From Halobaculum sp. MBLA0143 (lineage in GTDB: Archaea; Halobacteriota; Halobacteria; Halobacteriales; Haloferacaceae): DNA of 64,000 nucleotides. The translations under genes and the position numbers were made by a program. The DNA lies in contig NZ_JBGKAC010000001.1 of assembly GCF_041361465.1 (NCBI RefSeq), positions 2,170,001-2,234,000 on the forward strand. The letters are read 5' to 3'. The notes beneath the pieces were generated by a model, which was not told where the DNA came from, made no database searches, and saw only the letters and a program-made list of their open reading frames with translations. Below are positions 18,652-24,969 of this stretch, one piece after another (positions within the stretch are counted from its first letter, which is position 1; each line of letters opens with the position of its first letter).

Positions 18652-19371
18652 TCACCCGAACGGTTCGGCGACCACCGTCGTCGTCTCCCCACCCGGGCCA
18701 GTCACCCGAACGGTCGCCGTCGGCGGCGGTGTCCCCTCGTCTGGGAGTCTGACGAGCAGGAGTCGCGTGGGCGCCGCCTGTGTCGGCCCCGGGTCGACCT
18801 CGTGGACTGCCAGCCGCGGCTCGGTCGTGCCCACCGCCTCCACGGACTGGAGTCGGAGTCTGGACGCCCCGGAGGTGGCCCGCCGCTGAACGACGACGAC
18901 ACTCGCCGTCGAGAACTCCGTCGCCGCGGTGAACCGGTACCCCGACAGGGAGACGTCCGTCGCCGACTCGACGGCCGCGTGGAACTGCTCTGCGTCAGTC
19001 GACGACGCCAGCAACGCGGCCGCCGTGTCACTGTCGCCGAGCGGTCGTGCAGCGGTCCGGCCGACGACACCGTCGGGGGCGAACGGCCACGCCGCCGCGT
19101 AGTTCGTGTGGTTCAGGTCGTTGGCTGTGTCAGTCGGCTTGTCGGTATTCGTCCGAGTGGGAGTTGTCTCGTCGCTCCCGTCCGTCAGAGTCCTCGTTCC
19201 TTTACCATCCGTCGCTGTCTGGGTGTTGTCTCCTTCGGTCGTCTCCGTCTCGGCGCTCGGGCTGTCGGCACCACACCCACTCAAGCCGATCGTCATCCCC
19301 GCGAGGAGCGCCGAGACGCGGCGTCGTGTAATCTTGTCAGCGTTTGTTAAACTACCGACACCCAAATTCAT
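18652..19371 (-). CDS. Tat lipoprotein of unknown function
   Basis: A 239-residue protein from ATG 19371. I-T-R-R-R-V-S-A-L-L with a lipobox G-L-S-G-C-G (Cys about 33) is a Tat lipoprotein signal. A 50-residue Thr/Asp/Glu-rich tether follows, then a 140-residue compact domain with W-P-F-A-P-D-G-V-V and an alternating beta pattern that I do not recognise. It converges on the propeller lipoprotein. Its 5' end lies in the AT-rich patch shared with the subtilase. Confidence 0.7.
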   Translation of the reverse strand: MNLGVGSLTNADKITRRRVSALLAGMTIGLSGCGADSPSAETETTEGDNTQTATDGKGTRTLTDGSDETTPTRTNTDKPTDTANDLNHTNYAAAWPFAPDGVVGRTAARPLGDSDTAAALLASSTDAEQFHAAVESATDVSLSGYRFTAATEFSTASVVVVQRRATSGASRLRLQSVEAVGTTEPRLAVHEVDPGPTQAAPTRLLLVRLPDEGTPPPTATVRVTGPGGETTTVVAEPFG

Positions 19372-19457: not shown

Positions 19458-20984
19458 TTACACCAGATTTGGTACGTTCAACACATCGCCTTGTTGTGAG
19501 GATTCGCTAGGACAGACCGTGTAGTTGGACATCTCGTGGTACTTACGAACGTGATCGTAGTACGAGATTGGACCATTCGCGGACGCATGGATCGCGGTCC
19601 CAGCACCGACGATTGGCGATGCATATGAGGTCCCAGCGATGGTCACACTCGCGTCAGTATCGTACTCGTATGCCGAGTAGACGTTCGGTTGGAACCCGTA
19701 GTCTCCCCAGTCGGTGTGACACCACTTACAGTAGGCAGTGTCGTAGTTGTCCGCGTAGTAGTCGATAGACCCATAGTTCGAGTTCTGATCGTAACTGTAC
19801 CCACCCGAACAAGAGCCGAAGTAGCCACCGACGCCGATGGCGTGATACGAGGTCGCTGGATGACACACCTCGCTGGACTCATCATCGTTCCCCGTTGCGA
19901 CGGTCATCGCGTACCCCGCGCTTGTGTACGAGTCAAGTTCTTCACACAGTGTACTCGTACAGTACGGCTCGTTAGCTGCGGTCTCCAGTGCTGTCACACT
20001 GGCCGGGATGTCGTTTTTTACAGCGTACTCGATTGCGTTGCGCCACTCACTGGCCTTGATGTCTTCCGACGTGTCGTACACACGGAGCGGAACGTGGTGA
20101 CTCGAACTCGTCGTCTTCCCGTCAAGCATGAACGCTGTTGCGTCCATCACGTTCGTTCCGTGGGTAGCGTCGGAGGACTTCCACGACCCTGCACCCGTGA
20201 AGTCCTTTGCAAGCCCGGTGTCGATGCCTTGTGACTCCGCCCAGTTCTTGCTCCATTCGGTCGCATGTCCGCCATCACCGTATGCGTACCCTAAGTTGAA
20301 GCAGCCAATTTTTAGACTGGAGTCAAGGCTGTGTGATACTCCATCGAAGTCGCTGTGGGAGCTGCTACGTAGGTCATCGGCTGACGGAGGTGTCGCGGTG
20401 GTTGAGAGCTGTGAGTTGGTTTCTCGCAAGCGCACTTCGGGATCGTGCCCGATCTCCAGTACGAACCCGAGGTCAGCGATCTCTGCAACATCATCAACCT
20501 GTACACTTGAGAGACCCACCTTCGTTGAGGCGACTTCAGGGACGTACCGGACTGTCCCGTAGCTTCTGAGTTGTTCTACTTCGCCAGGAGCCGGCTGCCA
20601 TCCGTGGAGGGTTCTCCCGAACGAACCGTTAGACGTGTACCTTGCTCTGCGGCCGGTTGTTGTGACCGTGATGTCTACTCTCTCTTGGTTACTCTTTTCG
20701 AGCTGTTCTCGAAGGTGAGGCGTTAAGAGGGCCGACCGCTTACCGCTCCGTTCGTACTGACGGACCAGCCTTCGGGCTGCCGATAGGTCGGCTATGTGGC
20801 GGAAGTACGCGGGGTCACGGAACGAATCACCGTCTGTGCCATGCTGCGAGTAGGTGTTCGGGAGTTGCTTGTCGGTTGGTTGACCTTGTGCGACTCTTGA
20901 TCCGAGGACTCCGACAGCACCGAGGGCACCAGCGGACTTGAGTACGCCTCTTCTCCGATAGTTTAGCTTGTCTTCGTTGGACAT
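19458..20984 (-). CDS. Tat-exported subtilase (S8) homologue with altered catalytic Asp site
   Basis: The 508-residue protein starts with a Tat signal (N-Y-R-R-R-G-V-L-K-S-A-G-A-L-G, cleavage near A-Q-G-Q). A propeptide-like region to about residue 225 follows, with E-I-G-H-D-P-E-V near its end. In the protease fold I see the His motif D-A-T-H-G-T-N-V-M-D, the oxyanion region V-A-T-G-N-D and the Ser motif G-T-S-Y-A-S-P. The place of the catalytic Asp (usually V-I-D-x-G) reads G-C-F-N-L-G-Y-A, with Asn instead. Eight or more Cys occur in the catalytic part, unusual for a haloarchaeal protein and suggesting disulfides. Base composition is clearly lower in GC than both flanks, a sign of transfer. 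It may be a pseudoprotease, or another residue may serve. Confidence 0.82.
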   Translation of the reverse strand: MSNEDKLNYRRRGVLKSAGALGAVGVLGSRVAQGQPTDKQLPNTYSQHGTDGDSFRDPAYFRHIADLSAARRLVRQYERSGKRSALLTPHLREQLEKSNQERVDITVTTTGRRARYTSNGSFGRTLHGWQPAPGEVEQLRSYGTVRYVPEVASTKVGLSSVQVDDVAEIADLGFVLEIGHDPEVRLRETNSQLSTTATPPSADDLRSSSHSDFDGVSHSLDSSLKIGCFNLGYAYGDGGHATEWSKNWAESQGIDTGLAKDFTGAGSWKSSDATHGTNVMDATAFMLDGKTTSSSHHVPLRVYDTSEDIKASEWRNAIEYAVKNDIPASVTALETAANEPYCTSTLCEELDSYTSAGYAMTVATGNDDESSEVCHPATSYHAIGVGGYFGSCSGGYSYDQNSNYGSIDYYADNYDTAYCKWCHTDWGDYGFQPNVYSAYEYDTDASVTIAGTSYASPIVGAGTAIHASANGPISYYDHVRKYHEMSNYTVCPSESSQQGDVLNVPNLV

Positions 20985-23050: not shown

Positions 23051-24328
23051 ATGGCCCACGTCGAACGTGTCTCCGTGGAGGGGTTCAAGAAGATCGAGGA
23101 GCTGACGGTAGAGCCCGGGCAGTTCACCGTCGTCACCGGGCGGAACAACTCCGGGAAGACCTCGTTGCTGGAGGCGATTCGGCTGGGGTGTGAGCCAGGA
23201 AGTGTAGACCAATTTACCCATTCAGACCTGGTGCACTCTAATGGCACTCCTGGTAGAGGAGTCGAGAAAGTATTCAATAGACAACGGAGCGAATCTGTCG
23301 TTGAGGTGAAAGTTGGCGATCAAGAAGGGCTGACGAGGCTGCGTCCGGCTCCAGTCGCACAGGCGAGGGCAGCGGTCGCGCAGGCGGCAGCGAACCTACT
23401 CGAGTCGAGTGCTGGGGGGTTCGAGGATCTGATAAGAACCCTATCGGACCACCGTGAGTTTGAGCCGATCAGGGAAGAGCCGGAGGAGGGTATTCCTAAT
23501 CTGATTGCAGACCACATACCCACAGACAGTCAGTGGGTTCGTCACGGAGTCTCTGTTCTGGAAGTCGACGGTGAGTCTTATCCGATTGTCGAGGATCCGG
23601 GGACAGTGGAGAAGGCTGCCGGAACATTTATACACAGTTTGAATGCAGAGACTGGGATCGATCTGGCAGAGAAGTTCGACGTTCGGCTATCTGACGAGCC
23701 GGAAGGAGAGGGTATCACAACGATAGTCCCACGCGGACTGGTGCGGCGGCCGTCTCTCCCGACTGAAGTGAGTCCAGACCCTCGCACTTCCACGAACTTC
23801 GTCACCCACGGGACCACAATCAAGCCTGACAAAGAAGAACCGATCAAGACCGACAACGTCGGCGACTTCCTCCGCGAGAAGGAGATCGTGGACGATCTCA
23901 AGACGTTCACGCTCGACGACCTGATCTTCGACCCCGAAGACGGCGAGAAGTACTCCGTCCCGTTCGAGCAGATGGGCGAAGGGTTCCGAGCTATCGTCGC
24001 GCTGCTGTGGGAACTGCTCGACGACGACCTCCCCGAAGTCCTCTTCCTCGAAGAGCCGACCACGCACATGCACCCGGGCTACGTGCGCGAGGTGGTGTAC
24101 TTCTTGATCGGGCTGGCGATGGAGGAGGATATTCAGTTGTTCGTCACGACACACAGTAACGACTTCCTGAACGACCTGTTCAACGAGAATCTGCGTGACG
24201 ACGAAGTCGCGTTCCTCGAAGAGGAGTTCAAGCTGTTCCAGATGCAGGACGGCGCCGCGAAGACGCTGGAGTACCGCGAGGCGGAGCGGTCGCTGACCGA
24301 GTTGTACAACGATCTGCGGGGACTATGA
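23051..24328 (+). CDS. OLD/ABC-like AAA ATPase of a two-gene ATPase-TOPRIM module
   Basis: A 425-residue SMC/ABC-type ATPase. Walker A is G-R-N-N-S-G-K-T-S (about 30-38); the conserved Q-M-G-E-G-F-R takes the signature position (about 302-308). Walker B reads E-V-L-F-L-E-E-P-T-T-H-M-H-P (about 328-341) and the H-loop is T-T-H-S-N-D-F. The arrangement matches AAA_15/AAA_21 ATPases in OLD-family and PARIS-like defence systems. There is no C-terminal TOPRIM; that activity appears to sit in the next gene, which overlaps by four bases (ATGA). The middle, about 23205-23780, has lower GC and different codon use from both ends. Confidence 0.82.
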   Translation: MAHVERVSVEGFKKIEELTVEPGQFTVVTGRNNSGKTSLLEAIRLGCEPGSVDQFTHSDLVHSNGTPGRGVEKVFNRQRSESVVEVKVGDQEGLTRLRPAPVAQARAAVAQAAANLLESSAGGFEDLIRTLSDHREFEPIREEPEEGIPNLIADHIPTDSQWVRHGVSVLEVDGESYPIVEDPGTVEKAAGTFIHSLNAETGIDLAEKFDVRLSDEPEGEGITTIVPRGLVRRPSLPTEVSPDPRTSTNFVTHGTTIKPDKEEPIKTDNVGDFLREKEIVDDLKTFTLDDLIFDPEDGEKYSVPFEQMGEGFRAIVALLWELLDDDLPEVLFLEEPTTHMHPGYVREVVYFLIGLAMEEDIQLFVTTHSNDFLNDLFNENLRDDEVAFLEEEFKLFQMQDGAAKTLEYREAERSLTELYNDLRGL

Positions 24329-24969
24329 CCCAGGAACGAGATCGCGTCGTTCTCTGCGAGGGGAAGCGCGACGTGCGGCTCGTCGAACAGTTCTACGAAC
24401 TGGAGTACGCCGGCGTCGAGGTGGATCGGTTTCTCGCCGAAGACGTGGACCACCAGCGCGTCCGGAACTTCGAGCGACGGAAGCTACAGAACTTCACCGA
24501 GCGTCGCAACCCGTACGACGTTCTGGTGAAGTCGGAGAACGGGGTGGAGAATCTCGAGTTCCAGTTCGCGGGGCTGTGCAACGTTCTGTTGAAGCAACCA
24601 GACTACGAGGTGTGTCTGCTCACGGATCTCGACAAGAAAAACTACGATCACCTGACACACGGCTCGGACATCCGGAAGTACCGAGAACTGCTCAAGCAGT
24701 TGGACGAGCGGATCCAATCGGTCCACGAGGGCCGAGCGTACGAGATCGAGTGGTCAGATCCACACGCGAAGACGAGCGTCCAGGTCGCCGGAGAGGCGAC
24801 GCTCCACAGCAAACAGGGACCCGTCGGGAGCTTCGACGTGCTGGCGTTCCGATCAGATCTCGAAGAGGCGAGCGACATCCGCGACGGCGATAGAGACGAG
24901 ACGGAAGGTGACAAACTGCGTTCGTTTCTGGCGAGTGCGGACTCCAGAGCGATGACGCGCGTCCTCTGA
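24325..24969 (+). CDS. TOPRIM-like partner protein of the ATPase
   Basis: 214 residues. The N-terminus V-V-L-C-E-G-K-R-D has the Glu-Gly-x-x-Asp arrangement of TOPRIM motif 1. L-L-T-D-L-D-K-K-N (about 96-104) supplies the D-x-D motif. Together these are the metal-binding residues of OLD-type nucleases, primases and the AriB component of PARIS. The coupling to the ATPase gene and the separation of functions into two proteins recall PARIS or a split OLD nuclease. The C-terminal 110 residues are not recognised. Nuclease activity is inferred. Confidence 0.65.
   Translation: MTQERDRVVLCEGKRDVRLVEQFYELEYAGVEVDRFLAEDVDHQRVRNFERRKLQNFTERRNPYDVLVKSENGVENLEFQFAGLCNVLLKQPDYEVCLLTDLDKKNYDHLTHGSDIRKYRELLKQLDERIQSVHEGRAYEIEWSDPHAKTSVQVAGEATLHSKQGPVGSFDVLAFRSDLEEASDIRDGDRDETEGDKLRSFLASADSRAMTRVL

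Follow-up and report, generated by a model that had tools for sequence, protein, structure and literature searches.

P0001, the 508-residue product of a gene in a 64,000-nucleotide stretch of the Halobaculum sp. MBLA0143 genome (the window), is by fold and by sequence a divergent subtilase whose predicted place in peptidase family S8 is firm once its relatives are considered; its standing as an active peptidase is putative. An Asn occupies the position of the catalytic Asp. Sequence comparisons indicate that loss of this Asp is clade-wide and not a one-off mutation, and that Ser and His are retained. Our leading, tentative reading is that P0001 may be a Ser-His subtilase whose activity is slow or conditional, perhaps with the assistance of an anion, and that would function at the cell surface with a lipoprotein. 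It should be noted that the alternative of a pseudoprotease stands close to it.

Assignment of P0001 to family S8

The open reading frame of P0001 begins with ATG, contains no stops, and has a GC content of 0.563, as compared with 0.683 for the remainder of a 16-kb stretch (overall GC of the DNA, 0.687), in agreement with the first-pass annotation of the window, in which the gene was described as less GC-rich than its surroundings. The protein is acidic, with 64 Asp and Glu versus 40 Lys and Arg residues. This acidity, the overall GC, and distant DNA matches to haloarchaeal plasmids, obtained alongside some bacterial matches, suggest a haloarchaeal host. The same annotation called it Cys-rich, which does not hold for its composition, as 8 Cys in 508 residues (1.6%) is below the content of two canonical subtilases from the same genome (1.9–2.0%), but has substance in that Cys342, Cys347, Cys419, and Cys422 are invariant in all nine members of the family. 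Mapped features are collected in Table 1.

Table 1. Features of the P0001 gene and its partner gene, in window coordinates
Feature	Position	Strand	Basis
Asp-less subtilase gene, P0001, 508 aa	19458..20984	(-)	ORF; matches to S8 profile and subtilisin folds
Tat signal region, residues 1-35, RRRGVLK motif	20880..20984	(-)	Pfam TAT_signal E 0.0061, below cut-off; sequence
Probable propeptide, residues 60-185	20430..20807	(-)	Model secondary structure; no Pfam I9 match
Glu177 codon	20454..20456	(-)	Acid in 6/6 Asp-less, 0/3 Asp-bearing
Subtilase catalytic domain, residues 223-508	19461..20318	(-)	VIA-align Z 22.8-23.8 to subtilisins, model 203/216-508
Asn230 codon (AAC), catalytic Asp32 position	20295..20297	(-)	Alignments
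Asp255 codon, GID motif, family-specific insert	20220..20222	(-)	Invariant 9/9
His275 codon, catalytic His64 position	20160..20162	(-)	Alignments
Asn366 codon, oxyanion Asn155 position	19887..19889	(-)	Alignments
Ser453 codon, catalytic Ser221 position	19626..19628	(-)	Alignments
Cys347-Cys342 pair, CxxxxC	19944..19961	(-)	Invariant 9/9
Cys422-Cys419 pair, CxxC	19719..19730	(-)	Invariant 9/9
Tat-type lipoprotein gene, lipobox LSGC, conserved partner	18652..19371	(-)	Gene order, 86 bases past subtilase stop

By itself, P0001 was unmatched by Pfam S8 at E ≤ 1, and a sequence search of solved structures with P0001 alone gave no S8 match, so that automatic annotation could easily overlook it. PF00082 matches the other eight members of the family at E ≤ 0.1 (best 3.7e-19), and a profile of all nine finds, at the same threshold, 87 PDB sequences, with subtilisins at the top (3.2e-11). 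A structural model calculated from 54 rows (P0001, a single relative, and 52 viral-contig S8 proteins) has a mean pLDDT of 62.1, with ten-residue blocks of 75–88 near the four motifs; an earlier model from a two-row alignment had a pLDDT of 29.2. The catalytic part of the model matches subtilisins in Foldseek (E 3.5e-10) and in VIA-align (best Z 23.8, 231 residues, 3.0 Å). The nearest folds include the anion-triggered subtilisins 3bgo, 3f49, and 6ube, as is expected for any subtilisin; because the VIA-align rows are tied within Z 1, their place near the top means no more than “subtilisin.” The first strand of the modeled catalytic domain ends at residue 230, and residues 102–178, the predicted propeptide, have the strand-helix-strand-strand-helix-strand order that is expected for a subtilase propeptide; Pfam I9, which represents the propeptide, is not matched in P0001. 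Most members of the family, Asp-bearing ones included, depart from the Ser-Leu-Gly-Gly sequence of the S1 wall, the strand being A-L-E-T in P0001, S-V-E-T in three members with Gly at the Asp site, and S-F-G-A, the closest to canonical, in the member from genome G391.

Loss of the catalytic aspartate within a clade

In P0001 the V-I-D-x-G motif is replaced by C-F-N-L-G, and Asn230 falls in the column of the catalytic Asp in alignments with the eight homologues and with the 52 S8 proteins. All 52 have Asp at position 230 and His, Asn, and Ser at positions 275, 366, and 453, but these controls were fetched partly by patterns for the His and Asp motifs, so that the counts are biased upwards and fix the register only. 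The corresponding motifs of P0001 are D-A-T-H-G-T at His275, A-T-G-N at Asn366, and G-T-S-Y-A-S-P at Ser453; the catalytic His and Ser and the oxyanion Asn of S8 are thus present and its catalytic Asp is not. The initial description of an Asn at the Asp position with intact His, Ser, and oxyanion motifs is borne out, and it also withstood the alignment that had been set as its possible refutation, namely one placing the Asp at a different, conserved position. Among eight other PF00082 matches in the same genome, the seven that were read all have a canonical D-[TS]-G motif (the eighth is locus L050), giving at least seven canonical Asp-bearing subtilases in the genome that encodes P0001.

A search of genomes from the genus level up through family and order to class gave eight relatives, in G173, G391, G399, G443, G444, G446, G448, and G285, the last being the one relative (from Euryarchaeota archaeon Ods02) in a scan of named genomes; weaker matches were canonical subtilases (e.g. 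L009, L011, and L020) or fragments (L004 and L018). At the Asp site, P0001 has Asn, the G173 protein (locus L002) Val, those of G399, G443 (L014), G444, and G391 (L006) Gly, and those of G446, G448, and G285 Asp, L016 being an Asp-bearing member. Conservation of the Asn among close homologues, which had been raised as a check, was not observed; among the nine members it is found in P0001 only. An unrooted tree separates the six Asp-less proteins from the rest with support of 99/99. With rooting on four canonical subtilases from the same genome, support is 82/82 for the six and 97/96 for the five without the G391 member. L002 is the sister of P0001. As far as the sequences tell, this fits a single loss of Asp in the clade, but two losses are possible because the AAC codon of P0001 lies a single change away from Asp codons and two changes away from Gly codons.

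P0001 is 33–52% identical to the Asp-less relatives, and the six Asp-less members are under purifying selection. For the P0001 and L014 genes (52% identity), pN is 0.347 and pS is 0.715, with dS near saturation, and in other Asp-less pairs, for which dS is at or close to saturation, pN is also lower than pS. The 70 invariant positions in 429 ungapped columns of the six include His275 and Ser453, and the oxyanion Asn366 is kept in five, being replaced by Thr in L002. In the four nearest Asp-less relatives, identity is 46–51% in the propeptide versus 44–58% in the catalytic part.

The family is small, rare, patchy, low in GC, and probably haloarchaeal. The GC content of the gene is below that of its surroundings in all nine loci, by 0.05–0.15 in eight and by 0.01 in G399, which, along with the patchiness of the family, suggests that it has spread horizontally. 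An origin from plasmids or viruses was considered and set aside, as protein searches gave no supporting relatives: no member of the subtilase family was found in a plasmid collection with P0001 and L014 as queries, in phages with L014, or in viral contigs, and L016 as query produced one weak Deinococcus S8 match in the plasmid collection. A literature search found no natural subtilase clade that lacks only the Asp; with subscription journals mostly uncovered, this is weak evidence of absence.

Several loci contain partial or interrupted genes. In the G391 member, an in-frame TAG is present in the N-terminal part (L006:1645-1647), with the frame otherwise open; this member may be broken, and the assembly is 74% complete. 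A stretch of G171 (L035:7100-8430) is syntenic with G443 (L029:7100-9930) at 78–82% DNA identity, and in it ~40 bases stand in place of about 1.6 kb that includes almost the whole subtilase gene, leaving 37 C-terminal codons beside an intact lipoprotein gene. A solitary 126-residue C-terminal piece of the subtilase family is located beside other genes for exported proteins in G428 (L036:7393-7770).

The putative lipoprotein partner and other gene pairs

The gene that follows that of P0001 encodes a Tat-type lipoprotein with T-R-R-R and L-S-G-C sequences. A lipoprotein of the same family is encoded directly downstream and on the same strand in seven of the nine loci (the window, G173, G443, G444, G391, G446, and G448), the assignment being based on an hhalign probability of 94.7 for G448 and on similarity to G448 for G446. 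The subtilase and lipoprotein genes overlap by four bases in G444. A lipoprotein is also encoded downstream in G285 (L003), which is not counted among the seven, and none is present within the 16-kb stretch of G399. These downstream lipoproteins are one new family, for which Pfam at E ≤ 10 gave only three weak, unrelated matches, in searches where HMMER filters hide weak matches. Co-occurrence was rejected as proof of partnership because the lipoprotein domain is widespread (146 of 392 genomes at E ≤ 0.001, the strongest matches being the source sequences of the model itself); the partnership therefore rests on gene order. The lipoprotein is doubled in some genomes, as tandem genes in G173 (L027:8749-10279) and G391 (L033:8147-9649) and as two domains in one protein in G448 (L032:8382-9509).

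Other pairs were seen in the loci examined. The canonical, Asp-intact subtilases at L009:619-2987, L020:742-3215, and L011:482-2871(-) each precede a gene for a further Tat-type protein, 257–287 residues long and with common motifs (such as DHEP), which constitutes a second subtilase-partner gene pair. In the window, a lower-GC pair of genes (0.58 and 0.60) at 23051-24966 (+) consists of an AAA ATPase (AAA_21, E 2.5e-25; best PADLOC match AriA PDLC02980, E 3.5e-25) and, with no gap after it, a gene for a 214-residue protein with no Pfam or PADLOC match; it is possibly an anti-phage or abortive-infection pair.

Mechanistic alternatives and relationship to known systems

The mechanism that we tentatively prefer builds on what the sequences show, namely a sub-clade that dropped the catalytic Asp and retained the Ser-His pair and the oxyanion Asn. 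The Ser-His enzyme may still run slow or conditional acyl chemistry, perhaps acting first on the propeptide of the same protein or on a single tethered target, and water or an anion of the brine would occupy the place vacated by the Asp, with chloride or the scarcer nitrite or formate as candidates. Tat export and the pairing with a Tat-type lipoprotein would hold the subtilase at the outer face of the membrane. The Ser-His reading is favored by the invariance of His275 and Ser453 in a group that retains so few invariant columns, by the oxyanion Asn in five of the six together with the low pN relative to pS for P0001 and L014, by a propeptide whose conservation is similar to that of the catalytic domain, by the fact that known pseudoproteases of this fold lose Ser or His instead, and by the Gly at the Asp site in four of the six, as in engineered D32G. 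It is weakened by L002, which looks dead with Val at the Asp site and Thr at the oxyanion position, by loss of the S1 wall sequence even in Asp-bearing members, and by the possibility that His and Ser are kept for structure. The anion component is additionally weakened because the chloride level of the host is inferred and because Asn, unlike Gly, gives little room for an anion, so that anion use by P0001 itself is less clear than for the Gly members.

Exported haloarchaeal proteins, probably including those of this family, encounter chloride at molar concentrations, which greatly exceed the 10 mM used with subtilisin D32G. At 10 mM, chloride and formate are reported to be weak activators of this variant (PMC7935941); the same source describes activation of D32G by nitrite or azide and a structure of a D32A variant, 3BGO, in which azide sits in place of Asp32. 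That a brine ion, most simply chloride, stands in for the catalytic Asp in this natural and probably haloarchaeal clade is, in our estimate, unlikely. If it were true, the clade would be a natural counterpart of the engineered anion-triggered subtilisins, comprising proteases that stay inactive within the cell or while they fold and that respond to the external salt or anion composition by becoming active, at or near the lipoprotein partner; with anions as the trigger, these would be natural salt-switched proteases, which so far have been made by engineering only. The Ser-His-Asp triad is a textbook unit, and a natural lineage that has dropped only the Asp and diverged to 33–52% identity asks whether an ion can replace this residue and also whether a Ser-His pair can persist in a subtilase for non-proteolytic reasons, with the three Asp-bearing relatives as ready-made controls.

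The alternative of a pseudoprotease, in which the subtilase fold has a binding or regulatory role toward the lipoprotein or a canonical subtilase of the same cell, with the propeptide perhaps still bound in the cleft and with His and Ser in structural roles, is a serious one, although we would not call it probable. Absence of the Asp in six of nine members with three different replacements, the additional absence of the oxyanion Asn in L002, the noncanonical S1 wall, and the presence of at least seven canonical Asp-bearing subtilases in the same genome are all consistent with it, as are the precedents of CspC, CspA, and PIMMS2. In these precedents, however, Ser or His is lost first: CspC is reported to have G485, T170, and D105 at the Ser, His, and Asp sites and a propeptide that stays uncleaved (PMC6636752), and PIMMS2 of Plasmodium berghei is described as being without the HGT and GTS motifs (PMC5520436). 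Both His and Ser are kept in all six Asp-less proteins across 33–52% identity to P0001.

Use of another acid, suggested in the first-pass annotation, is improbable. Asp255, Asp281, or propeptide Glu177 might orient His275, and Asp255 is invariant in the nine members, but Asp255 and Asp281 (eight of nine) are kept in Asp-bearing members also and so do not track the loss of Asp. When columns of the nine-member alignment were examined one by one for positions at which at least 5 of the 6 Asp-less and no more than 1 of the 3 Asp-bearing members have an acid, none was found in the catalytic domain (223–508), where a compensating acid thus appears to be absent as far as the alignment goes. The positions that do track the loss, Glu177 (6/6 versus 0/3), Asp204 (6/6 versus 1/3), and Glu78 (5/6 versus 1/3), are in the propeptide region or just past it, Glu177 falling close to where the final predicted propeptide strand ends. 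Glu334, in the vicinity of the S1 wall, was considered and discarded: it is Glu in four of the six, Val in L002, and gapped in L006, and is aligned to Asp in the three Asp-bearing members in a region where the alignment is unsure.

Decay of the gene, with the whole family disappearing and the loss of Asp as an early step, has still less to recommend it. The rare and patchy family, the 37-codon remnant in G171, and the N-terminal in-frame stop of the G391 member are in its favor, but eight of nine open reading frames are full length without stops, pN is well under pS between distant Asp-less members, and the four Cys, His, and Ser are invariant. Activation by deamidation of Asn230 to Asp after export, another early suggestion, is chemically possible but can be given almost no weight, as the residue after Asn230 is Leu, which is not a context for fast deamidation, and the five other Asp-less relatives have Gly (four) or Val (one) at the site, neither of which is able to deamidate, so that it is not the mechanism of the family.

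In comparison with S8 proteins such as subtilisin BPN', Carlsberg, and the halolysins, P0001 has the same fold, motif order, HGT and GTS motifs, and oxyanion Asn and, in the model, an N-terminal propeptide with the expected strand-helix order. It differs in having Asn in place of the catalytic Asp, and its family differs in four invariant Cys, an insert with an invariant G-x-D between the Asp and His positions, HGTxVxD instead of HGTHVAG, and an S1 wall that is not SLGG. In dentilisin of Treponema denticola (PrtP-PrcA-PrcB), a subtilase gene likewise shares an operon with one for a lipoprotein, a parallel for which no homology is claimed; PrcB is reported to bind PrtP, which requires it for expression, and the PrtP S447A mutant is inactive on SAAPFNA (PMC8167434), so that activity there depends on the catalytic Ser. 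CspC and CspA of Clostridioides difficile resemble P0001 in combining a subtilase fold with an incomplete triad, but CspC has lost His and Ser and keeps Asp, the reverse of the P0001 clade. In the engineered anion-triggered subtilisins (D32A, D32G: SBT189, 3BGO, RASProtease(N)), only the triad Asp is missing and His and Ser are kept, as in P0001, and four of the Asp-less relatives have the same Gly as the D32G forms; P0001, in contrast, is a natural, secreted protein and has Asn where the engineered enzymes have Gly or Ala.
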